The notes beneath the pieces are model-generated. The model was not told where the DNA came from, searched no databases, and saw nothing but the letters and a program-made list of their open reading frames with translations. A program made the translations under genes and the position numbers. A stretch of 18,067 nt of DNA from Alphaproteobacteria bacterium (GTDB taxonomy: Bacteria; Pseudomonadota; Alphaproteobacteria; RF32; CAG-239): contig JAFYWO010000134.1 in the NCBI GenBank assembly GCA_017557925.1, positions 1-18,067 on the forward strand. The letters run 5' to 3'. Shown here piece after piece: positions 2,977 to 18,067 of this stretch. The first letter of the stretch is position 1, and every line of letters starts with the position of its first letter.

Positions 2977-4451
2977 TCCTCATATTCCCAACGTTTTCCA
3001 TTATACCTACATTTATGTTTTTGATATTTTGGCTTCAAGATATACAAGTTACCGTGCGCAGCATTATCATAGTATGTTTTTAATATATCTCTGTCAACAA
3101 AATGTACCGGAACCATTCTTCCTCTGTCTTCTTCATAAGTATCCCAATAAACGCCCCCAAAAATAATCTTAGGCATATATTGCAATATTAACTCATTTAA
3201 ATTGCTTTTAGGCGCTATCCCCAGCTTTTCTCCCAACACATCTATTTGTCCTAAAAGAATAGAATAAAACCCCGGATTTTTAGATTTTATGTTATAAACA
3301 GAATAATATCCGTTTATAACATAATCACAGTGGTTTGTATTTTTAAAAGCAAATTCATAATTTGCCTTAAAATCTTTTCTGGCATATTCGGGAATATATG
3401 TTTTTATATAGTTATAATAAATTGCAAAAAAGATACAAAGCAAACTCATGCAAAATAATATTTTTTTATAACTTATAACCCTATCCAAATAAATAACCGC
3501 AATCATTATACTTAACATCAACAACAAAACATTATAATGCAAAAAAGCAGAAAAATAAAAAGCTCTTAAACAAATTTCCTCTAAAAACAATAAACTTAAA
3601 ATTTTTTCAGAAAAGTTTCCCTTAAATAAAAAAAACAAAGCCCCCAACAAACCTAATGGAACAAAAATATAAAACTCATAATACATAAGAGGAGGCATAG
3701 ATATTCTTTGATTTTCAAAGATTGTCGGAACATATGAGTTAAAATAATAATTAGATTTTAAGTATATAATCAGAGCATCATTAACATATAAATATGTAAA
3801 AAAAAGCAGCAACAACATACAAGGCAATACTATTCCAAAGGCAAAATCTTGCTTTTTTATTTTTTTTATAAAAACTTCATAAAGCAAAATACCCCCTATC
3901 AATGCCAAATTTAACAATATTTTTTGGGAACACATAAAACTTAAAAAAAAGCACAAAAAACTTATAACAATATCCTTTAAGTTTGCTTTTTTATTATATT
4001 CAAACCAATAAAATATACCTATAAAGAAAAACAAATACATAAAAGTATCCGGACGATAATCCATAGAACATAGTATTGAAAAAGAAGATAATGTTATTAA
4101 AGAAAAAATTAAAACTGTGTTCTTCTTTAATCCGTTCTGAAGTAATATTTTAGCTTCAAACAAAATTACCAAAAGAAAAGCCACTACGCTTATTACATTG
4201 AATATAAAAAAAATCTTCACATCATTTATAAAAAATGCAACTATCGGAGAAAACATATACCAAATAAGAGGATTATGGTGTTGGAAAAAATCTCTATATG
4301 GAATATTTTTTTGCCATATCAACCAAGATGTATGAATGTGTTCAATATTATCACCATTAGATTTTATTAAAAATCCGTATGTATAAACAATAAAAATCCC
4401 TGTAAAGAGTAATAAAAAAAACAAAAATAACTCTATTTTTTTAGTTTGCAT
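2973..4451 (-). CDS. GT-C-type multispanning membrane glycosyltransferase (copy 2)
   Basis: A 492-residue membrane protein with about ten or more hydrophobic segments and a soluble C-terminal region of about 120 residues. After the first membrane segment there is a loop with SNGDNIEHIHTSWL and PYRDFFQHHNPLIWY (D34, E37, H38, H58, H59, N60, P61). This resembles the first periplasmic loop of PMT/ArnT-like (GT39/GT83) GT-C transferases, where an acidic residue is catalytic and the donor is a polyprenyl-phosphate sugar. It is a clear paralogue of the gene just upstream: the loop motif, the LGIAP.N...QYMPKIIFGG block and a C-terminal YILKP motif are shared. Its ATG sits 11 bases inside the end of that gene, with an AGGGAG site, and its stop overlaps uvrC. 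Likely role, by inference: adding a sugar to an envelope lipid or glycan in the periplasm. Acceptor and sugar cannot be told. Confidence 0.8.
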   Translation of the reverse strand: MQTKKIELFLFFLLLFTGIFIVYTYGFLIKSNGDNIEHIHTSWLIWQKNIPYRDFFQHHNPLIWYMFSPIVAFFINDVKIFFIFNVISVVAFLLVILFEAKILLQNGLKKNTVLIFSLITLSSFSILCSMDYRPDTFMYLFFFIGIFYWFEYNKKANLKDIVISFLCFFLSFMCSQKILLNLALIGGILLYEVFIKKIKKQDFAFGIVLPCMLLLLFFTYLYVNDALIIYLKSNYYFNSYVPTIFENQRISMPPLMYYEFYIFVPLGLLGALFFLFKGNFSEKILSLLFLEEICLRAFYFSAFLHYNVLLLMLSIMIAVIYLDRVISYKKILFCMSLLCIFFAIYYNYIKTYIPEYARKDFKANYEFAFKNTNHCDYVINGYYSVYNIKSKNPGFYSILLGQIDVLGEKLGIAPKSNLNELILQYMPKIIFGGVYWDTYEEDRGRMVPVHFVDRDILKTYYDNAAHGNLYILKPKYQKHKCRYNGKRWEYED

Positions 4452-10248: not shown

Positions 10249-11661
10249 ATGAATATGGACTGTAAAGAATTAAAAAATATTTGGGATGAAAGATATGCAG
10301 TTGTTCCGCAACAGTTGGAAAAACTAAAAACTATCAATTCTGTTGCAACTGCTTTTAATACAAATATTGACGCTATTTACAAAATAAGTGGCGAGCAATT
10401 AAAAAAGATTATTACAGAAAATGGTTTCACATTAAGCGATATAGAAAATATTTCTTTATCAGGTTTTAGAGAACCTCGTGATGTTGTTTTAGGAATTGCT
10501 AAATGTTTTTGTCGTGGCATTGCGGAAGAATGGGTTACAGAAGATATATCTGTTTATAATTGGCTTAATGATAAGATAGGCTATCAACGTTTACAAATGG
10601 GAGGTCAAGGTGGTATTATTGCCAATGCTTTGGCTTTATTACAAATAGGCCAAGTTGTTGCTCATACAAACTCACATCCAAAACTTCAAGCAGAACAATT
10701 TCTTGATTTAGATAACTTGCTTAGTTTTGATGAAAACGGTAAACTTGCAAAATCTGTTAATATTGCCAGAAACAATGATATACCTCTCATTCACTGGATT
10801 ATTGAGTTTGATAAAAATGACACCTTCACTTTAGAAGGCAAAACATTTACTTGTCCTAAATCAAATCGCTTCATCGCAACATACGACCCATTGAATATGA
10901 ATTTGGTGATGAATGAAGATTTTATTTCATACCTTAGCACTCCTAACAACGTAGAATATTTATTATTATCCGGCTTTAATCCTTTGTTAGAAAGTAACAA
11001 TGGTATAGCGCTTGTAGACAATGCTGCAAAAATTTTAGAAAAATGGAAAACTGCTAACAAAGATATGATTGTCCATTTAGAAATAGCATCCACTCAAGAC
11101 AAGGCGGTTAGAAAAGCAATAGCCCAAAAGCTTGCTCCTCTTTCTCATTCTGTAGGTCTTAATGAGCGTGAAACAATAGACTTATTAGAAATAATGGATA
11201 AAAATGATTTAGCTCAAGTTATAGAAAAAGATACTTCTGCTTGTAATTTATTTGATGCTGTTTTGTATTTAATAAAAGAACTCAGATGTCAAAGAATCCA
11301 ACTTCATATGTTTGGACTATACCTAACCATTCAAAACAAAGACTTCAGATATTCAGCTGAACAAAACCTCAAAGGTATGGTTACAGCATCAGTTGTATCA
11401 TCAAGTAAAGCTTATAATGGTGAAATCACAGAATACGAACACTTAACTAAAGCATTGGGTATGAGCGCATCAGACATTGGTCTTAATGAGCTTAAAGCAT
11501 TGGCAGACAAACTCTCAAAACCCGAATTGTTAGAAAAAGGTATTTGCGAAGTAGATGGTTATACCGTTAGTGCTATTCCTACAATTTTGGTTGATAAACC
11601 AAAAACTTTAGTAGGTATGGGAGATACAATTTCATCGGTATCTTTACTTGCCGGTTTATAA
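10249..11661 (+). CDS. ADP-dependent glucokinase/phosphofructokinase-family sugar kinase
   Basis: A 470-residue member of the ADP-dependent sugar kinase family (ribokinase fold, ADP_PFK_GK), which phosphorylates glucose or fructose-6-phosphate using ADP as donor. Visible signatures: N-terminal FNTNIDAI (36-43); QMGGQGGIIANALALL (116-131); NRFIATYD (206-213); LSGFNPLLE (240-248); metal-linked HxE at 276-278 (HLE); NxxE at 305-308 inside SVGLNERE; and the C-terminal catalytic GMGD (456-459, D459) in VGMGDTISS. All key positions are present, so it should be active. Glucokinase and phosphofructokinase activity cannot be separated by eye. Last gene of the operon; AAGGAG lies just ahead, with ATG at 10249 or at 10255. 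The family is best known from archaea and animals and is sparse in bacteria, so transfer is possible, though codon use does not stand out from its neighbours. Confidence 0.88.
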   Translation: MNMDCKELKNIWDERYAVVPQQLEKLKTINSVATAFNTNIDAIYKISGEQLKKIITENGFTLSDIENISLSGFREPRDVVLGIAKCFCRGIAEEWVTEDISVYNWLNDKIGYQRLQMGGQGGIIANALALLQIGQVVAHTNSHPKLQAEQFLDLDNLLSFDENGKLAKSVNIARNNDIPLIHWIIEFDKNDTFTLEGKTFTCPKSNRFIATYDPLNMNLVMNEDFISYLSTPNNVEYLLLSGFNPLLESNNGIALVDNAAKILEKWKTANKDMIVHLEIASTQDKAVRKAIAQKLAPLSHSVGLNERETIDLLEIMDKNDLAQVIEKDTSACNLFDAVLYLIKELRCQRIQLHMFGLYLTIQNKDFRYSAEQNLKGMVTASVVSSSKAYNGEITEYEHLTKALGMSASDIGLNELKALADKLSKPELLEKGICEVDGYTVSAIPTILVDKPKTLVGMGDTISSVSLLAGL

Positions 11662-11682
11662 AAATATCGGAATAAAAAATTT

Positions 11683-11711
11683 AAGGCGGAATATAATTTC
11701 CGCCTTTTTTT
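11683..11711 (+). terminator. Intrinsic terminator after the ADP-kinase gene
   Basis: Perfect 9-bp stem AAGGCGGAA (11683-11691) / TTCCGCCTT (11698-11706), loop TATAAT, then a run of T. It lies between convergent genes; on the minus strand the stem is followed by TTAAATTTTTTA, so it may also stop smpB transcripts. Confidence 0.93.
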
Positions 11712-11742
11712 ATCTCTATTCAATCCATAAAACCAAAAGAAT

Positions 11743-12213
11743 CTACCACTCTTTCAGTCTACGCTTTATATCTCTTTCTTTAATGCTTTCACGCTTATCA
11801 TAAAGTTTTTTACCTTTACCTAGCCCTACTTCCAACTTCGCACGCCCTCTGGCATCAAAAAACAGCTTTTTTGCTACCAAAGAATATCCTTTTTTTGCCA
11901 TAGCACCAATAATTTTGTTAATTTCATGACGAGTAAGCAAAAGTTTTTTCTTTCTGTTTGCATCGTGTTTTTCGTAACCACGGTTTGCGTATTCCTCAAT
12001 TTTCAGGTTTTCAATAAAAATTTCACCATCATCATAAGACCCGTAAGTATCCACAAGACTTGCTTTACCCAGGCGGAGCGACTTAACTTCTGTTCCTTTC
12101 AACTCTATTCCGGCAACAAAATTTTCTTCAATAGCATAATCAAAGGTAGCTCTTCTATTAACAGCAACCTGTCCTGTTGATATAAAATCTGATTTTTTGA
12201 CCTTTTTTGACAT
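11743..12213 (-). CDS. smpB: SsrA-binding protein (trans-translation)
   Basis: Binds tmRNA and places it in the A site of stalled ribosomes. The 156 residues show the family core: RRATFDYAIEENFVAGIELKGTEVKSLR (residues 21-48, in parts), SYDDGEIFIENLKIEEY, HDANRKKKLLLTRHEI, and the positively charged C-terminal tail KLYDKRESIKERDIKRRLKEW (quoted as the final block) that mimics an mRNA in the decoding channel. Length is normal. The start is set by GGAAG on the minus strand before the ATG. It stands alone on the minus strand, convergent with the ADP-kinase operon, and has its own predicted promoter. tmRNA itself is not in the window. Confidence 0.98.
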   Translation of the reverse strand: MSKKVKKSDFISTGQVAVNRRATFDYAIEENFVAGIELKGTEVKSLRLGKASLVDTYGSYDDGEIFIENLKIEEYANRGYEKHDANRKKKLLLTRHEINKIIGAMAKKGYSLVAKKLFFDARGRAKLEVGLGKGKKLYDKRESIKERDIKRRLKEW

Positions 12214-12239
12214 TTATTCTTCCTTAAAAACTGGCTTTA

Positions 12240-12269
12240 AATATATAACCACCTTCATAAACTAGTCAA
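12240..12269 (-). promoter_or_regulatory. Predicted promoter for smpB
   Basis: Minus strand: TTGACT (12264-12269), 18-base spacer, TATATT (12240-12245), giving a leader of about 20 bases before the smpB ATG with its GGAAG site. Both hexamers match the consensus at five of six bases. Confidence 0.6.
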
Positions 12270-12302
12270 TAGTTTTGTATCCTTCAAAAAATAATACTTT
12301 AA

Positions 12303-12317
12303 TTAACCAAAATTTAA
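12303..12317 (+). promoter_or_regulatory. CtrA-like TTAA-N7-TTAA site upstream of the pilin gene
   Basis: TTAA, seven bases, TTAA fits the core of the alphaproteobacterial CtrA box and reads the same way on both strands. It lies about 175 bases upstream of the pilin ATG and 90 bases upstream of smpB. The motif is short and cheap in AT-rich DNA, so this is a candidate only. Confidence 0.25.
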
Positions 12318-12413
12318 TTCTGGTGTGTTAGTAACTATCTCAATGGCATTTTTTGTTATAAAAATAATATAGCAAACTTATCGTCATATAACTTTAGTTA
12401 AAGGCTATTACTA

Positions 12414-12429
12414 TTTACATAATTGTAAA
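12414..12429. promoter_or_regulatory. Palindrome TTTACA-N4-TGTAAA upstream of the pilin gene
   Basis: A perfect 6-4-6 inverted repeat (TTTACATAATTGTAAA), 61 bases before the pilin ATG. Symmetry and position suggest a dimeric regulator site. A further TGTAAA occurs about 20 bases downstream. The regulator is not known. Confidence 0.4.
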
Positions 12430-12438
12430 AAGTTCACT

Positions 12439-12467
12439 TTTAATGTAAAGTAATTATTGTTTAAGAT
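12439..12467 (+). promoter_or_regulatory. Possible pilin promoter
   Basis: TTTAAT (12439-12444), 17 bases, TAAGAT (12462-12467). This would give a leader of only about 17 bases that is nearly all ribosome-binding site. The -35 match is poor, so an activator or another sigma factor may be needed. No clear sigma-54 signature was seen. Confidence 0.3.
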
Positions 12468-12490
12468 ATTAAATTTTTAGGAGACAGAAC

Positions 12491-13129
12491 ATGAGAGTTA
12501 ATGAACAAGGTCGTTCAATGATTGAGATGCTCGGCGTGTTAGCCATCGTTGGTGTGTTATCAGTGGGTGGTATTGCCGGTTACTCAAAAGCTATGAACAA
12601 GTTCAAAACTAACAAAGTTATTGACCAAGTAAACATGATTTCTACAAATATCAGAACATTGTATTCTTCTCAACGTTCTTATGAAGGTTTGGATAATGCT
12701 TTGGCTATTAAGACTGGTGTTGTTCCATCAGAAATGTATGAAGCAGCTTCTGGTGATGTATCAGAAATCATTAACGCATTCAGCGGAACAGTTTATATTA
12801 CAACTGGTACACACAATGGTCAAGCACACGCAGCTTACATCATCGGTTTTGATGGTCTTCCAAGAGCTTCCTGCGTAACAGCTGCTACAACAGACTGGGG
12901 TGGCGACGTAGGTTCTGGTTTCGCTGCTATGTATGTTGACGGTGAATTAGGTGCTCGTAAAGGTAGAGAAGCTGCTTTAGCTCTTTCTATGGATAGTACA
13001 GAAATCACTCCAGGAGCAAACTATGCTGTTCCAGGTGATGAAGAATACGGCACACCAGTTTCAGTTATCACAGCTCAAGCAGTTTGCGTAAGTGATACTG
13101 ACAACGCATTTGCTTTGAAATACATCTAA
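12491..13129 (+). CDS. Type IVb-like (PilS/TcpA-type) pilin
   Basis: A 212-residue prepilin. A short leader MRVNEQG ends in the glycine expected before prepilin peptidase cleavage; the mature protein begins RSMIEMLGVLAIVGVLSVGG, with Glu at mature position +5 and one long hydrophobic helix. The position +1 residue is Arg rather than the usual Phe or Met. After the helix, TLYSSQRSYEGLDNALAI and GVVPSEMY follow the pattern of the PilS/bundlin/TcpA major pilin family. Two cysteines (C128, C199) bracket the C-terminal part, as in the D-region disulfide of class IVb pilins. AGGAGA lies six to seven bases before ATG and codon use is biased to GGT, GCT and GAA, so high expression is likely. It is monocistronic: no assembly ATPase, platform protein or peptidase is nearby. 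A pseudopilin of a secretion system is the alternative. Confidence 0.85.
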   Translation: MRVNEQGRSMIEMLGVLAIVGVLSVGGIAGYSKAMNKFKTNKVIDQVNMISTNIRTLYSSQRSYEGLDNALAIKTGVVPSEMYEAASGDVSEIINAFSGTVYITTGTHNGQAHAAYIIGFDGLPRASCVTAATTDWGGDVGSGFAAMYVDGELGARKGREAALALSMDSTEITPGANYAVPGDEEYGTPVSVITAQAVCVSDTDNAFALKYI

Positions 13130-13153
13130 TCTTAGAATTAGATTTTGCTAAAG

Positions 13154-13183
13154 ACTTGGCAACTTCGGTTGTCAAGTTTTTTT
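13154..13183 (+). terminator. Intrinsic terminator of the pilin gene
   Basis: Ten-pair stem ACTTGGCAAC (13154-13163) / GTTGTCAAGT (13168-13177) with one G-T pair and a stable TTCG tetraloop, followed by seven T. It ends the pilin transcript 25 bases after the stop codon. Confidence 0.95.
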
Positions 13184-13219
13184 GTGGCTAAGTTAAATTT
13201 CAATAAAAGCTTTGCATAC

Positions 13220-13249
13220 AAAAAAAAGCGCCAGAGGGAAACTGACGCT
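13220..13249 (-). terminator. Minus-strand intrinsic terminator at the end of the hairpin array
   Basis: On the minus strand: AGCGTCAG, loop TTTCCCT, CTGGCGCT, then eight T (the A run at 13220-13227). The internal pair is a G-T wobble on the minus strand but a C-A mismatch on the plus strand, so the stem works only for leftward transcription. No minus-strand protein gene precedes it, which implies a non-coding transcript entering from the right. Confidence 0.85.
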
Positions 13250-13256
13250 CTTAAAA

Positions 13257-13316
13257 TATAAGCTATCTTTTCTTTTTTGATTTAGGGATATAGGAGTAAT
13301 TGCAAGATAGCTTATA
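13257..13316. repeat. Hairpin 1 of the array (13-bp perfect inverted repeat)
   Basis: Arms 13257-13269 and 13304-13316 (core ATAAGCTATCTT / AAGATAGCTTAT), loop of 34 bases at 13270-13303. On the plus strand the loop has GGGATATAGGAG but no following ATG; on the minus strand it reads CTCCTATATCCC. Confidence 0.95.
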
Positions 13317-13320
13317 ATGT

Positions 13321-13382
13321 TAAATAAGTCACCATTTCGGGATTTTTATGGAAGGAGACTGAATATGAGAGTGACTTATTTA
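13321..13382. repeat. Hairpin 2 of the array (12-bp perfect inverted repeat)
   Basis: Arms TAAATAAGTCAC (13321-13332) and GTGACTTATTTA (13371-13382), loop of 38 bases at 13333-13370. On the plus strand the loop holds GGAAGGAG, seven bases, ATG. Bases 13353-13372, reaching into the right arm, match the pilin translation start 12479-12498 at 18 of 20 positions without gaps. Confidence 0.95.
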
Positions 13383-13390
13383 TGTAGGAC

Positions 13391-13446
13391 AATAAACCGA
13401 TTGAGATTTTAGGGAGGGAGATATGAAAATAAGAAATCGGTTTATT
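13391..13446. repeat. Hairpin 3 of the array (12-bp perfect inverted repeat)
   Basis: Arms AATAAACCGATT (13391-13402) and AATCGGTTTATT (13435-13446), loop of 32 bases at 13403-13434. On the plus strand the loop holds AGGGAGGGAG followed two bases later by ATG at 13423; on the minus strand CATATCTCCCTCCC. The arms share no sequence with those of hairpins 1 and 2, so the array repeats structure, not sequence. Confidence 0.95.
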
Positions 13447-13558
13447 TTCCTGAAAGAGGTATCAATTATCATTCACAAAGCGTGGAGGACAATCTTTATC
13501 TTTATTTTTATTTTTTTATTAGGATATAATGCGAAAAAATAACAGATACCCCTAAGGT

Positions 13559-13881
13559 CTAAAAGTAATATCTTATTAAATATCTAGTCAAAAATCTTAA
13601 AGTTTATTTTTTATTATTTCTTGTTATCTTCTATAGACAAAATTACACAAAACACACCATTTGTCAACACAAAAAATTAAAAAATTTACCACATTTTTAT
13701 AACATATTGTATTTACGCAAATCTTTTTTTTATACATATAATTTCAGCCTGTTAATTTACTCGTTTTATAGCTATTTCCCAAACTAATATAATTTGCATC
13801 TTATTTTGACAAAACAAAATACTATATTTCATAGGTTAAAATCAATATAAGCCATATTTCTTTTATAGATAAATAAAATTA
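13559..13881. other. AT-rich intergenic stretch without a gene
   Basis: About 320 bases of very AT-rich DNA between the hairpin array and the pyrE promoter. Apart from the candidate minus-strand promoters I see no open reading frame with a ribosome site, no tRNA-like fold and no further long inverted repeat. It probably holds the divergent upstream regions of the small RNA and pyrE. Confidence 0.6.
13565..13591 (-). promoter_or_regulatory. Candidate promoter for the minus-strand RNA
   Basis: Minus strand: TTGACT (13586-13591), 15-base spacer, TATTAC (13565-13570), giving a start near 13558. A second candidate lies further up: TTGACA (13662-13667), 16 bases, TAATTT (13640-13645). Both are imperfect: a short spacer in the first, a weak -10 in the second. 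Confidence 0.35.
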
Positions 13882-13910
13882 TTGACAAAATTCTTTTCAT
13901 TTGCTACACT
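13882..13910 (+). promoter_or_regulatory. Strong predicted promoter for the pyrE-like gene
   Basis: Perfect -35 TTGACA (13882-13887), 17-base spacer, TACACT (13905-13910). Start of transcription would be near 13917, giving a leader of about 42 bases. This is the best promoter match in the window. Confidence 0.7.
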
Positions 13911-13920
13911 GTCAACAGTG
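13907..13920. promoter_or_regulatory. Operator-like palindrome over the pyrE start site
   Basis: CACTGT-CA-ACAGTG is a perfect 6-2-6 inverted repeat that overlaps the -10 box and the expected transcription start. A repressor bound there would block the promoter. It is not the alphaproteobacterial LexA box; no regulator is known to me for it. Confidence 0.55.
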
Positions 13921-13958
13921 AGATAAGTAATCTGTTTATAATTTTAATTTTTTTATCT

Positions 13959-14621
13959 ATGGGCGATTTTGGCATAGAAAAGATGTGTTACGATATGGTC
14001 GTAGCTAGTATGTTTAAGAATAAAGCAGTAAGAATCAATTTTGATACACCTTACTTGCTAAATTCTGGTATTGAATCTCCTCTATATATTGAAGCTGGCG
14101 CTTTGTTGAGCGACTTCGGTGTAAGAGGAACAGTGGTATCATCCTTATTGTTTTGGGTGAATGACCATTGTAGAAAACTCAACACTACTGTTGATGCGAT
14201 TGTTGGTATTGCTCAAGGTGGTATCGTTTGGGCTAGTTCTATTGCAAACAACAAGGGACTTCCTTTGCTTTATGCTTTTGCTAAACCGAAGGATCACGGT
14301 TTGTTCAATCAGATTGTAGGCGATATTCCGTTCAATGGTGCTAGAGTTATCGTAATTGACGATGCTATTACCACCGGTTATTCTGCATTAGAAGTGGTGA
14401 AAGCACTGCGTATCGGCAAAGACGGCAAGAAGGCTAACGTCATCGGTGTTTATAGCATCTTTGACTGGGGCTTTTCTCAAGTTAACGAAAAATTCGTTGA
14501 ACTTGGCATTGAAAAGCAAAGCCTTGTGTCAGTTGATACATTGATTGATTACGGTGCTAAGAACAACTATCTTAAACCAAAGGAAGTTGATAAGCTTAGT
14601 GTGTTCATCCCAAAATTTTAA
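13959..14621 (+). CDS. pyrE: Orotate phosphoribosyltransferase-like protein
   Basis: A 220-residue type I phosphoribosyltransferase that would join orotate and PRPP to form OMP in pyrimidine synthesis. Family features: NSGIESPLYIEAG (35-47), matching the LxSGxxSPxYxd element of PyrE; AIVGIAQGGIVWASSIA (80-96); the catalytic-loop-like FAKPKDHG (107-114; K109, K111, H113); and the PRPP-binding VIVIDDAITTGYSA (130-143). It is divergent from typical PyrE, so another phosphoribosyltransferase substrate is possible. Single gene with its own promoter, operator-like site and terminator. There is no clear Shine-Dalgarno before the ATG at 13959 (the leader is nearly all A and T); an ATG at codon 9 (MCYDMVV) is an alternative but has no better site. 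Confidence 0.8.
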   Translation: MGDFGIEKMCYDMVVASMFKNKAVRINFDTPYLLNSGIESPLYIEAGALLSDFGVRGTVVSSLLFWVNDHCRKLNTTVDAIVGIAQGGIVWASSIANNKGLPLLYAFAKPKDHGLFNQIVGDIPFNGARVIVIDDAITTGYSALEVVKALRIGKDGKKANVIGVYSIFDWGFSQVNEKFVELGIEKQSLVSVDTLIDYGAKNNYLKPKEVDKLSVFIPKF

Positions 14622-14637
14622 GTGGTATCAATAAAAA

Positions 14638-14665
14638 ACGCCTGTCTATGACAGGTGTTTTTTTG
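14638..14665 (+). terminator. Intrinsic terminator of pyrE
   Basis: Eight-pair stem ACGCCTGT (14638-14645) / ACAGGTGT (14651-14658) with one G-T pair, five-base loop, then a T run. Located 17 bases after the stop codon. Confidence 0.92.
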
Positions 14666-14715
14666 TGTCTTAATGATTATATATAAATCCCTGTAATAAA
14701 TAAAGAGAGGCTGAT

Positions 14716-14784
14716 ATGAATGTAAAAGAAATCATCATTTTAATAGTATTTATTTTTGCCATCATAATATCGCTTGTAATGTAA
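14716..14784 (+). CDS. Possible 22-residue membrane peptide
   Basis: ATG at 14716 follows AGAGAGG by five bases and opens a 22-codon frame ending in TAA: short polar start MNVKE, then a nearly unbroken hydrophobic run of Ile, Leu, Val and Phe. Such peptides occur as small membrane proteins or type I toxins. It lies after the pyrE terminator with no clear promoter, so it may not be expressed. Length alone gives no proof of coding. Confidence 0.3.
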   Translation: MNVKEIIILIVFIFAIIISLVM

Positions 14785-14817
14785 TTATAAAGACAAAGTA
14801 TCACAAACTTGCCCCCT

Positions 14818-14902
14818 TCATTGCGAGTATAGGAGTGGATTGCCACGCCTTCGGCTCGCATGACGTAACAGGTGCAAAGGCATACTACAATTCGCAATGA
14901 CG
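14818..14902. repeat. Degenerate palindromic interspersed repeat with CATTGCGA ends
   Basis: Outer arms TCATTGCGA (14818-14826) and TCGCAATGA (14892-14900, continuing CG) form a 9-bp inverted repeat. Inside is GGATTGCCACGCCTTCGGCTCGCATGACG, an arrangement (quoted here as GGATTGCCACGCC then TTCGGCTCGCATGACG) typical of the CATTGCGAG...GGATTGCCACG repeats scattered in Rickettsia and other alphaproteobacterial genomes. A further partial end, CTCGCAATAACAACG, lies at about 14932. G+C content is clearly above the surrounding DNA. It appears decayed. Confidence 0.65.
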
Positions 14903-14951
14903 AGTGATTAAAAACACGGCATAAAAACTGCCTCGCAATAACAACGCAATC

Positions 14952-14978
14952 AAAAAAAAACAAGGGCGTTAGCCCTTG
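14952..14978 (-). terminator. Intrinsic terminator of the cysteine-rich protein gene
   Basis: On the minus strand: CAAGGGC, loop TAAC, GCCCTTG (14961-14978), then nine T. It begins 9 bases beyond the stop codon of the large minus-strand gene, confirming that this is its true 3' end. Confidence 0.95.
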
Positions 14979-14986
14979 CTTTTTGA

Positions 14987-17900
14987 TTAATTCCTGTCAA
15001 GTAATCCACCTCCGCCTACCTCACATTCAACCCTCATAGTAATGCTTCTAGTTTCGCCGGTATTAGGATTTGTAACTGATACAGTTGATGGAGATATTGT
15101 TGCACTATTGCAAGCGGTAATTGTGTTAGGTCTATTACACATACCTCCCCCACTATTTTCATTATCACAATATGAGAAATGATCACCATCTGCTTCATAA
15201 CTACCATCACTCTTATATGATCCACACATTGCAGCATGGGCCATATTATTAATGTCAGGTCTTACGCATATATACAAACTTGAACCAAAGTCTACATAAG
15301 TATCAACAAGCATCGCTCCCATATCATCAACAAAGCTAACATTATTTACAACCATCCAACACATTCTATCATTCCAATAACCAATACCACAATCATAACC
15401 TACATTAACTATAGCTCTTGTTGGCCAAGAGAAATTATCTCCGCCGGTACATGAACCATTATTACATGTTTGACCAACTAGACACCTAGATAGACCACAA
15501 GTTTCATAATATGTTGTTCCATTTCTGACACAACTGTCTGTCTCTAACGTAGGAACAAACATACATTTATTTCTACATGTAGTTGGTGTTTCCTGATATA
15601 CACAATCATTTTCTACAATTTCATCTGTACAGCAATCACATGGTGTTTTATCATTTTCTAACCATTTTGCAGGACAACAACATCTATCACCTAATGCTGT
15701 ACCAAATTCTCTAAAGAGAGGAACTTCGCCATCAGGATCACAAGTATTAGTAATATTACATGGACTATAATCTATAACTGTATTACACTGACCACTACAA
15801 CTGAAGTTAGCTGTAACAAAAGCATTGCTTGATATTTGACCAGCTATAGTATTCAGACTATCAGAGTCAGAAACTTCTGTCATCCAGTTAGGTTGACCTG
15901 TAAATCCATTAAAGCTGATTAAGCATTTACCATCATTATATGTAATGTTATTATTAACGCTCATAGATACAGTTGTTCCTGATGGGATATTCTCTTTATA
16001 AATAGAGTTATCACCTTTTGTTCCACCGGCAAATGTTACCCCTAGTAGGTCTTCAATACCTATACCAGTTGGACATCCTCCACCAAAGCTACCCATTAAG
16101 TTAGCACTATATAAGCCACCTTCACACTTACCTTTGTTACACAACTGTCCTGCACTACACGTAATATCACCGCATCTTTCATAATATGTAACACCATCTG
16201 AACATATTTTATGTGGAATTGTATTATTTACCGGTGCGCATTTTTGTGCACAAATTTCTTCAGTCATAGTATATGGACATGTTTCTTCCATATCACCACC
16301 GCAACTTAACTTATATGTTTTGTTGTTATATGTAAATTGATCACCCTGATTATAGGTTTTTCCATCAATTGTAACACTACAAGTTATGAGGCCTGGTTGG
16401 TCAGCTGTTGCACCACCTGAACAGAAGTTTGTATATGTAGCAAATGATTTGACAGCTCCACCACCTATTCTACAAGTAACGCTACCACTAAATGTTTTCT
16501 GTTGTGTTGGGCAACCAAATGTTGCACCGATAGTAGCACTTGAGATACCTGTTGAATTATCACAGCCTGCGAAAATCTCACCATCACCTGTATGACTATG
16601 CGAACCCGCAAAATCAACAACGAAGTCGTATATAGTTTCTTTTACACATTCAGTTTTACAACAGTAGAACCCGTCTCCACATCTATCGTGAATTATTGTC
16701 CCTTCGCCTTCATAACAACCTGCTTTGTTTGTATCACAAAGACTTGAGTCACTAACTTTAGTGTAACCTGATTTACAAGAGGTGTATTCACCACATTTCA
16801 TTGTAGAGTTATCAATTCTTGTAACGGTTCCTCCTTCACTAAATACGCAAATACCGCTATAATCTCCAGTTTTTGTGTCCTCATAATATGGATTTTTACA
16901 ACCAACAGAACAGTAGCAACTAGATACAGTCGAATGTTCGGTATAACTAAAGTATGTATCATCAGGTTTAGTTGTTGTGCAATCAGTTGGACATACTTGT
17001 TCAACGCCACCATTACAAACTAGTATGTACTTCTTACCATCCTCAAAATTAAATTCTTCTCCTTCGCAAGCAAAGTTACCATCAACATCTTGAATACAAC
17101 AACTACTAAGTTCCGGAGTGGAATTACTTTCGTAACAATAGTTTTCATAGTATTCAAGTCTTTCAGAAGTCTCTCCACAAACAACAGTAGATTCAAAGCT
17201 TATATCACCATTGTGACAAGCATAAGTTGCTTTCAGATTAACCTTGCCAATACCATCTGTTGTAGAAGAACTACAAGTACCCCAAATTGTACCGTTACCG
17301 AGCCCAGGAGTATGTTTAACATCTAAATTAACATAAATATATTCCGGCTTAGATGGAGTACACTTACCGCAATCTTTTCCATCTACCTTTATGTATTTAT
17401 CGTCAGAAAGCTTACCGCAACCTTCAACAGAAGAAGAAGCATCACCTGCGGTATAATCTTCACCTTCTTTACAATCATCTTCAGTAAGTCCTAAAGTATA
17501 TCCTTCCGGACAAGAGTAGTTACAAGCTGTGCATAGACCGCATGTTGGCGGAACTACACATCCTGTTTGTGTAGATGTTGCTTTTACAGAAGAATATATT
17601 TCAAATTCTTTAACATCAGTCTTACAGCTAGTTTTACCAATATCTAAACTATAATCACCCGTACATGTGTACTTACAATCTGAGCACATTGCATATTTCT
17701 TGTTAGAGCAACCTTCTTCTGTGCCGGAACAAGTCTTCTCAACATAAGATTTATCCAACGGTGTGCAGTCGTCTTGTCCGTTTGTTGGGAAGCCTTCTTC
17801 TCCTTCTAGGATATAATCTGCTTCTACAGCTTCTGTTTCACAAGTACCATAGCTACAATCGCCACAGAAACCGCATTGTTTATCAGGGTTACCTTCGTGT

Positions 17901-18067
17901 CCGGTTGGTTTTGTTGCATCCATTACTCTGTAGTATTGGTATTTAGTGCAATCAGTTAGAAGTTTATCTGGTTCATATCCTTCAACCTTTTCACATTTTT
18001 CATTCTCATCATAAACACCACAACAGTATTCAAAGTTTTCACATCCGCCATCAACACAAACTTGTCC
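14987..18067 (-). CDS. Large modular cysteine-rich, probably secreted or surface protein, N-terminus beyond window
   Basis: The frame is open from the right edge to TAA at 14987 (1026 residues visible); the ATG at 17923 is internal, since the frame continues upstream as GQVCVDGGCENFEYCCG. Cysteines are dense and often in CxxC, CC and CGxCxxC patterns, suggesting many disulfides and thus an exported protein. Three architectures follow each other (numbering from the M at 17923): short Cys-rich units at 1-190 with CG.C..C (CGFCGDC, CGLCTAC); two related modules at about 196-315 and 431-551; and two copies of TYYExCG-x3-C-x2-GQxC-x2-GxC at 579-600 and 804-825. The C-terminus is GGGLLDRN, with no sorting motif or beta-barrel pattern that I recognise. 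No function can be named; adhesin or surface-layer-like roles are guesses. It is acidic and rich in Gly, Thr, Ser and Asp. Confidence 0.85.
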   Translation of the reverse strand, partial: GQVCVDGGCENFEYCCGVYDENEKCEKVEGYEPDKLLTDCTKYQYYRVMDATKPTGHEGNPDKQCGFCGDCSYGTCETEAVEADYILEGEEGFPTNGQDDCTPLDKSYVEKTCSGTEEGCSNKKYAMCSDCKYTCTGDYSLDIGKTSCKTDVKEFEIYSSVKATSTQTGCVVPPTCGLCTACNYSCPEGYTLGLTEDDCKEGEDYTAGDASSSVEGCGKLSDDKYIKVDGKDCGKCTPSKPEYIYVNLDVKHTPGLGNGTIWGTCSSSTTDGIGKVNLKATYACHNGDISFESTVVCGETSERLEYYENYCYESNSTPELSSCCIQDVDGNFACEGEEFNFEDGKKYILVCNGGVEQVCPTDCTTTKPDDTYFSYTEHSTVSSCYCSVGCKNPYYEDTKTGDYSGICVFSEGGTVTRIDNSTMKCGEYTSCKSGYTKVSDSSLCDTNKAGCYEGEGTIIHDRCGDGFYCCKTECVKETIYDFVVDFAGSHSHTGDGEIFAGCDNSTGISSATIGATFGCPTQQKTFSGSVTCRIGGGAVKSFATYTNFCSGGATADQPGLITCSVTIDGKTYNQGDQFTYNNKTYKLSCGGDMEETCPYTMTEEICAQKCAPVNNTIPHKICSDGVTYYERCGDITCSAGQLCNKGKCEGGLYSANLMGSFGGGCPTGIGIEDLLGVTFAGGTKGDNSIYKENIPSGTTVSMSVNNNITYNDGKCLISFNGFTGQPNWMTEVSDSDSLNTIAGQISSNAFVTANFSCSGQCNTVIDYSPCNITNTCDPDGEVPLFREFGTALGDRCCCPAKWLENDKTPCDCCTDEIVENDCVYQETPTTCRNKCMFVPTLETDSCVRNGTTYYETCGLSRCLVGQTCNNGSCTGGDNFSWPTRAIVNVGYDCGIGYWNDRMCWMVVNNVSFVDDMGAMLVDTYVDFGSSLYICVRPDINNMAHAAMCGSYKSDGSYEADGDHFSYCDNENSGGGMCNRPNTITACNSATISPSTVSVTNPNTGETRSITMRVECEVGGGGLLDRN
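16271..16633 (-). repeat. Module B of the cysteine-rich protein
   Basis: About 120 residues beginning IYDFVVDFAGSHSHTG and ending METCP/EETCPYT, the diverged partner of module A. Shared cysteine spacing and the closing KLSCGGDMEETCP versus ILVCNGGVEQVCP show common origin by internal duplication. Confidence 0.75.
16979..17338 (-). repeat. Module A of the cysteine-rich protein
   Basis: About 120 residues beginning IYVNLDVKHTPGLGNG and ending EQVCPTDC. It shares an order of landmarks with module B: G.G.I..GC, a Gly-Ile/Val turn, ATYAC/ATFGC, STVVCG/GSVTCR, Y.N(Y/F)C, G..F....KKY.L.C.G..E..CP. Confidence 0.75.

Follow-up and report, generated by a model that had tools for sequence, protein, structure and literature searches.

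Small RNAs that present anti-Shine-Dalgarno motifs in a series of hairpin loops are known from rhizobia and Rhodobacter. The rhizobial RNAs alpha-r14/NfeR1, SmelA075 and SmelA099 (cuckoo) have three or four hairpins with variable stems and CCUCCUCCC in each loop, and a single family with a varying number of modules has been proposed for them (PMC10746234, PMC7143759, PMC3927594). In NfeR1, which has a sigma-70 promoter, three redundant anti-Shine-Dalgarno motifs silence targets such as ntrB (PMC10746234, PMC7143759, PMC3927594); this RNA is stated to be Hfq-independent (PMC10746234). The CcsR1-4/cuckoo RNAs of Rhodobacter carry an anti-Shine-Dalgarno motif in each of several stem-loops (PMC3927594), and CcsR RNAs share one precursor transcript with a DUF1127 gene (protein CcaF1) and are cut from it (PMC10253847). 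AbcR1/2 (alpha-r15) also leave CU-rich anti-Shine-Dalgarno motifs unpaired, and these are believed to base-pair at ribosome binding sites (PMC7143759). With two motifs and three stem-loops, these Hfq-binding RNAs of 114-120 nt are not a chain of like hairpin modules.

We analysed a window of 18,067 nucleotides, positions 1 to 18,067 of contig JAFYWO010000134.1 of an Alphaproteobacteria bacterium, in which an earlier note had described three consecutive hairpins with different stems as a multi-loop design that was not known. The rhizobial alpha-r14/NfeR1 and SmelA075/SmelA099 cuckoo RNAs are a precedent for it, and the design thought new is therefore already known. The hairpins themselves were reproduced exactly: the arms 13257-13269/13304-13316 (13/13 bp paired), 13321-13332/13371-13382 (12/12 bp) and 13391-13402/13435-13446 (12/12 bp, one mismatch allowing extension to 13386/13451) enclose loops of 34, 38 and 32 nt and are separated by gaps of 4 and 8 nt. 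An inverted-repeat scan of the whole window found no other perfect repeat of at least 12 bp with a loop of 20-60 nt, and in 500 dinucleotide-shuffled versions of 13186-13958 such repeats averaged 0.022 and never exceeded 1. The minus-strand RNA of 13215-13475 folded at -58.6 kcal/mol (z = -6.5), against z = -3.7 for the plus strand. The arms had been called unrelated to each other; this did not hold, as AATAARYC...GRYTTATT or a near-variant is common to all, and the hairpins are therefore diverged copies of one module.

Read on the minus strand, display hairpin 1 (13386-13451), the 5'-most, has the loop core CUCCCUCCC at 13412-13420. Display hairpin 2 (13321-13382) has the loop UCUCAUAUUCAGUCUCCUUCC with its core at 13350-13357, and this loop is complementary to the start region of the pilin gene at 12491. 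Display hairpin 3 (13257-13316) has the weakest core, ACUCCUAUAUCCC at 13285-13297. A covariance model built from 19 hairpins (R1) scored them at 60.9, 54.6 and 46.9 bits, the first being itself among the rows from which the model was built.

The structure extends rightward past the three hairpins. A leader hairpin was found in the minimum free energy structure of the minus strand at 13455-13553, with a loop containing GUCCUCCACG and a CCUCC site at 13484-13488 whose probability of being unpaired is 0.70; the related genomes G009 and G013 have leaders built alike, again with CCUCC. Upstream lies a conserved minus-strand promoter, with a -35 element TTGACA (13662-13667; exact in seven of eight arrays, the search expression having missed G013) and a -10 element TAATTT (13640-13645) preceded by TGTG, separated by a spacer of 16 nt (16-17 nt in relatives). 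The conserved motif TGTCYATA (13632-13639) lies around the expected transcription start. The expression TTGTRTAN{2,8}TGTCYATA gave seven matches in 18 genomes of the genus, all of them at arrays (seven of eight), and the G012 array deviates from it at one base; when reversed as a control, the pattern matched four times. At the other end, a Rho-independent terminator with an 11-bp stem, a 7-nt loop and a T run occupies 13220-13252 of the minus strand. The terminator claimed by the earlier note was thus recovered, at 13252-13224, as the sole site in a scan of 13100-14000 (0.2 expected from shuffles). From the promoter at 13667-13640, a start at about 13633-13635 (deduced from the -10 position) and an end near 13220 follow, and we predict a transcript of about 415 nt that runs leftward from 13635 to 13220 and is made of the leader hairpin, three display hairpins and the terminator. 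A consensus scan also listed a weaker promoter, TTGTCC-16-GATAAT at 13492-13465, within the leader hairpin, which is less likely to be the one used.

Of 57 genomes searched at the DNA level, four genus relatives, G009, G015, G001 and G005, have related arrays; two short matches lie elsewhere. The R1 model, run on 126 genomes of the family, found arrays in eight of the 18 genus genomes, at one locus each (G000, G001, G005, G009, G012, G013, G015 and G017). They hold two to four display hairpins, including an imperfect one, the second in G012, which stands beside a single good display hairpin. The eight loci have a common plan: promoter, leader of about 60-190 nt, two to four display hairpins and a GC-rich hairpin with a T run; in G013, seven Ts directly follow the last display hairpin. 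Outside the genus, R1 gave four weak matches in four genomes of 108; on reading, these (L041-L044) are ordinary short-loop bidirectional terminators and were rejected. An order-level search of 153 genomes, overlapping the family set, gave no further arrays. A looser R1 search of the ten array-less genus genomes gave nothing better than E = 0.09, and seven weak places in six of them (E 0.09-0.70) were on reading not arrays; two of these weak matches, L055 and L056, are by eye antisense to apparent gene starts. Since no array was found in ten of the 18 genomes, it is not essential to the genus.

In a pattern scan of named genomes, 21 places were found and R1 confirmed convincing arrays at eight. 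Seven of these are in records titled Alphaproteobacteria or uncultured Rhodospirillales MAGs, with rumen or rectum in three titles. The other pattern matches scored low with R1 (L127 32 bits, L124 24.9, L130 22) or not at all and were taken as chance. The eighth array (L121, JAFZRU010000017.1, about 3400-3560), nearly identical to that of G015, is on a 286 kb contig binned as Prevotella, whose DNA stops resembling that of G015 just before the array promoter; it may reflect a chimeric contig or a transfer. The sequence TCTCCCTCCC occurs at 25 places in the genus, 11 of them within arrays, the other 14 being without a hairpin of the kind searched. Plasmid and phage collections gave no match. On sequence evidence, the array is a real, well-structured and genus-restricted candidate for a small RNA with several anti-Shine-Dalgarno loops.

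In an alignment of 19 hairpins, which leaves out an extra nested hairpin of G005 (h0) and the imperfect second hairpin of G012, changes on both sides were found at 8 of 12 pairs (33 cells), and 96.1% of cells were paired as compared to 30-45% with the partner slid, a percentage that is partly circular because the rows were picked by a stem-demanding search. The count was therefore redone on the second hairpins of the eight genomes alone, including the imperfect one of G012 that the stem search had missed: 92.7% of cells were paired, as compared to 27-47% when slid, with both-side changes at 5 of 12 pairs (9 cells). In relatives the stems thus change with compensation and the loops are conserved, the outcome that the earlier note had named as support for its reading. 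The display-loop cores are open, with a probability of being unpaired of 0.93-1.00 (0.98-0.99 in the window) as compared to transcript means of 0.42-0.56, with the exception of the second hairpin of G012 (0.52). The leader CCUCC sites of G000, G009 and G013 are less open (0.52-0.72), as are a second leader site in G013 (0.45) and a CUCC atop the second stem of G017 (0.52).

The loop cores are CUCCCUCCC, or CUCCUUCC, ACUCCUAUAUCCC, UUCCCUCCC and similar, and are complementary to GGGAG-type Shine-Dalgarno sites. In the two sampled relatives, G005 and G009, start regions are G-rich at -9 to -11, and their commonest hexamers are AGGAGA and AAAGGA, respectively, which is not independent evidence because the starts were chosen partly by such a site. 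Of 20 loops (G005 h0 taken in, the imperfect hairpin of G012 left out), 15 have an anti-start-codon CAU on the 5' side of the core, at most 8 nt away in 14 of them; on the 3' side of the core start, CAU occurs in four. Shuffled upstream parts gave a mean of 7.1, and reached 15 or more once in 5000; the true significance is below this figure because the loops are related by descent and not independent. No conserved peptide was found across the eight arrays on either strand, and sense-strand open reading frames do not exceed 38 codons in any of them. With accessible CU cores and compensated stems in relatives, the proposal of the earlier note, a leftward small RNA built of loop-displayed anti-Shine-Dalgarno elements, is upheld as a prediction.

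How close, then, are these arrays to the described RNAs? As in alpha-r14/NfeR1, the window has three display hairpins (two to four in relatives) with unpaired anti-Shine-Dalgarno cores and variable stems. The core here, however, is CUCCCUCCC or weaker, and CCUCCUCCC occurs in none of the eight arrays. Loops are of 22-50 nt, whereas the two SmelA075 hairpins that fold cleanly have loops of 13 and 10 nt; unlike those of the alpha-r14 group, the stems have AATAARYC...GRYTTATT in common. The transcript, with its leader, is predicted at 301-426 nt, as compared to 116-122 nt from the coordinates in PMC7143759. The CcsR/cuckoo RNAs are similar in having several anti-Shine-Dalgarno stem-loops and a variable number of modules. 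The CcsR loci differ in having a DUF1127 partner: DUF1127 (PF06568) was found in none of 18 genus genomes, and the control matched one of 14 named genomes, E. coli.

The Rfam model of ar14 (RF02344) matched neither 13180-13720 of the window (up to E=10) nor the seven relatives' loci (up to E=1), and the positive control SmelA075 scored 89.9 bits. CcsR1 (RF02791) likewise left both unmatched at the same limits; it gave SmelA075 28.7 bits, under the cut-off of 65.3. The R1 model did not match SmelA075, and the whole window gave nothing in Rfam at gathering scores. At a loose threshold, six matches in the array region and ten in relatives' loci were obtained, all below gathering scores and rejected, the best being to a microRNA family (E 0.0036, 31.6 of 86 bits). 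A literature search, which lacked the founding papers on cuckoo and CcsR, found no report of the array RNA. By analogy, the arrays look like RNAs that work as the alpha-r14/cuckoo RNAs do, as a far-diverged relative or a look-alike.

We surveyed candidate targets by computing loop-mRNA duplex energies in two genomes, with 303 start regions from 400 kb of G005 and 255 from about 346 kb of G009. For all six loops of these genomes, the mean duplex energy was lower at start regions than in coding windows. As a null for specificity, the core was kept and the flanks were shuffled 100 times. With the three G009 loops, 2, 10 and 1 of 100 shuffles reached the mean energy (best duplex 27, 2 and 4; best ten 10, 3 and 10). 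With those of G005, the numbers were 22, 75 and 22 (best duplex 55, 61 and 56; best ten 39, 63 and 22), and for G005 h2 the strongest duplex lies in a coding window (-26.2, against -24.4 for the best start region). The core therefore accounts for most of the preference for start regions; extra specificity beyond the core is suggested in G009 only, of the two genomes sampled.

Among the top G009 candidates was an ankyrin-repeat gene (Pfam Ank) with a duplex of -34.5 kcal/mol. As a group, the 12 ankyrin-type genes of G009, which are paralogs, gave a Mann-Whitney p of 1.5e-4. One G009 stretch, which holds VirB8-, CagX- and VirB4-type genes, has five of its nine genes among the 26 best of 255; four of the five were scanned with Pfam, giving no match above cut-off and one sub-threshold T4SS match. 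A cluster of ankyrin-repeat-type genes in G009 (L107, C3, about 11100-17900) has the common start MS(D/E)DILEKQLFEII and differing start regions; one of these genes was scanned with Pfam.

The start region of the window pilin pairs with the loop of hairpin 2 at -21.3 kcal/mol; with the loops of this genome, 15 of the 432 background start regions equal or exceed this. For the closest pilin of each genome, the number of 432 start regions pairing equally well or better was 15 in G000, 2 in G013, 20 in G009, 23 in G015, 53 in G005 and 129 in G001, ranks that are post hoc because the pilin was chosen by position and by a match seen by eye. The match is thus ordinary in G001 and modest in G005, and no pilin match was found in G012. 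Further pilins gave mixed numbers (153 in G000, 127 and 6 in G009, 4 in G013, 331 in G005, 15 in G015), and those of G017 fell at 0-28 for four and 79-347 for the rest; the pilin loci L153 and L164 yielded no start region by the expression used, and one pilin match was without a locus. G017 has 18 matches to the pilin N-terminus, as compared to 0-3 in the other seven array genomes. When 60 reciprocal-best-hit genes of G005 and G009 were ranked jointly, the pilin came second; the ranks of the two genomes correlate (rho 0.44) because both sets of cores favour strong Shine-Dalgarno sites. On sequence grounds, pilins are plausible targets. A target class of cell-surface and secretion genes, comprising the pilin and, in G009, the type IV secretion cluster and ankyrin-repeat genes, is faintly indicated.

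Could the loops bind a protein and not mRNA? CsrB and RsmZ are sponges with tandem hairpins and a repeated loop motif, whose GGA loops bind a protein. An array whose CU-rich loops soak up an RNA-binding protein, in the way that CsrB/RsmZ sequester CsrA, would have the same layout of accessible repeated loops, near-constant core and variable stems, with a hairpin number that differs among genomes, and the plus-strand loops do show GGA motifs as in CsrB. However, the conserved promoter is directed leftward and the sense strand carries CUCC, not GGA. For whole transcripts compared with 60 shuffles, the sense strand gave z of -5.5 to -10.1 and the antisense strand -2.8 to -5.9, the sense being stronger in all eight arrays; in absolute folding energy the antisense strand is lower in several. 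The terminator scan listed no plus-strand site in 13100-14000, but it also failed to list a plus-strand terminator seen by eye. A sponge would moreover have no need of an anti-Shine-Dalgarno core with an anti-start codon enriched on the correct side, and we consider this explanation unlikely.

The neighbouring genes raise the question of a role in cis. The convergent neighbour is the pilin-like gene (12491-13129, plus strand; PilS/Bundlin domain, Pfam PF08805 E=1.7e-13, PF05307 E=2.6e-13), which has its own plus-strand terminator by eye at 13154-13183 (perfect 10-bp stem, TTCG loop, T run). On the other side is a divergent pyrE-like gene (13959-14621, plus strand), named from its translation, and beyond it a cysteine-rich open reading frame of 978 aa (14987-17923, minus strand); other cysteine-rich frames adjoin the arrays of G001 and G005, by eye. 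The array could be a convergent RNA acting on the 3' end of the pilin transcript, or a leader or attenuator of pyrE, since in the window and in G009 it has a pilin gene on one side and a pyrE-like gene on the other, in G015 it adjoins a similar pyrE-like gene, and in G009 it is upstream of the pyrE-like gene and on the same strand as that gene. In the window, however, it is directed away from pyrE and terminates before the pilin gene, the arrays of G001 and G005 have different neighbours, and a promoter (exact -35 in seven of eight) and a terminator-like end belong to the arrays themselves. A role in cis is thus very improbable. Relative to pilin and pyrE, the array has opposite orientations in the window's genome (L001) and in G009 (L002).

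A chance or passive DNA element without RNA function, such as a cruciform or piled-up bidirectional terminators, would fit the stem motif, which is similar to the one found in ordinary bidirectional terminators of related genera. The shuffles, the covariation, the constant loop cores and the array-specific promoter make it barely credible. Those terminators (L041-L044, about 1500-1530) are built on a stem of this kind, AAATAAGCC...GGCTTATTT, closed by a very short loop, and the display hairpins may therefore have grown from terminators. Least credible of all are plus-strand small open reading frames whose Shine-Dalgarno sequence and ATG each hairpin would hide: GGAG-spacer-ATG occurs on the plus strand of all eight arrays (13 places), but the peptides range from 2 to more than 50 aa and are not conserved, except in the near-identical first hairpins of G015 and G012, and the conserved promoter sits on the opposite strand.

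On the evidence of structure, covariation, conserved promoter, terminator, accessible cores and start-region preference, all read from sequence, the array is thus probably a leftward non-coding, trans-acting small RNA that blocks translation initiation through its loops; transcription, mRNA binding, repression and use of Hfq we infer. Transcription would start from the sigma-70-type promoter at 13667-13640 and end at the terminator at 13252-13224, and three strong hairpins would keep loops of 32-38 nt open. The CU-rich core of each loop would mimic the anti-Shine-Dalgarno end of 16S rRNA and, as an anti-start-codon CAU usually lies a few bases 5' of it, the loop can be regarded as a translation initiation region in short antisense form. 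The core would pair, loop first, with the Shine-Dalgarno region of an mRNA and pairing would then extend into the start codon, blocking binding of the 30S subunit. Several loops on one RNA would provide several binding sites, and so greater avidity or a wider list of targets. Hfq may take part: 15 of the 18 genus genomes have its gene, and the remaining three are 65-81% complete, but its role is kept as a possibility because NfeR1 is stated to be Hfq-independent (PMC10746234).

More tentatively, and with less chance of being right, the array may be modular. Each hairpin would be a whole anti-initiation region, made of anti-Shine-Dalgarno, spacer, anti-start codon and codon-2 bases and tuned to its own set of mRNAs; hairpins would be gained, lost and retuned singly, and one transcript would repress a number of genes for the cell surface and for secretion, namely those of pilin, type IV secretion and ankyrin proteins. 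Its loops would then be separately addressable, in contrast to the redundant identical loops of NfeR1. The arrays would carry the design of several anti-Shine-Dalgarno loops, known from rhizobia and Rhodobacter, into uncultured Alphaproteobacteria of rumen and gut; here the core is a different one, the loops are larger, an anti-start-codon element is present and the DUF1127 partner is missing. Either the family would be far older and looser than its Rfam models, or such RNAs originated on two occasions, in the present case possibly out of terminator hairpins.
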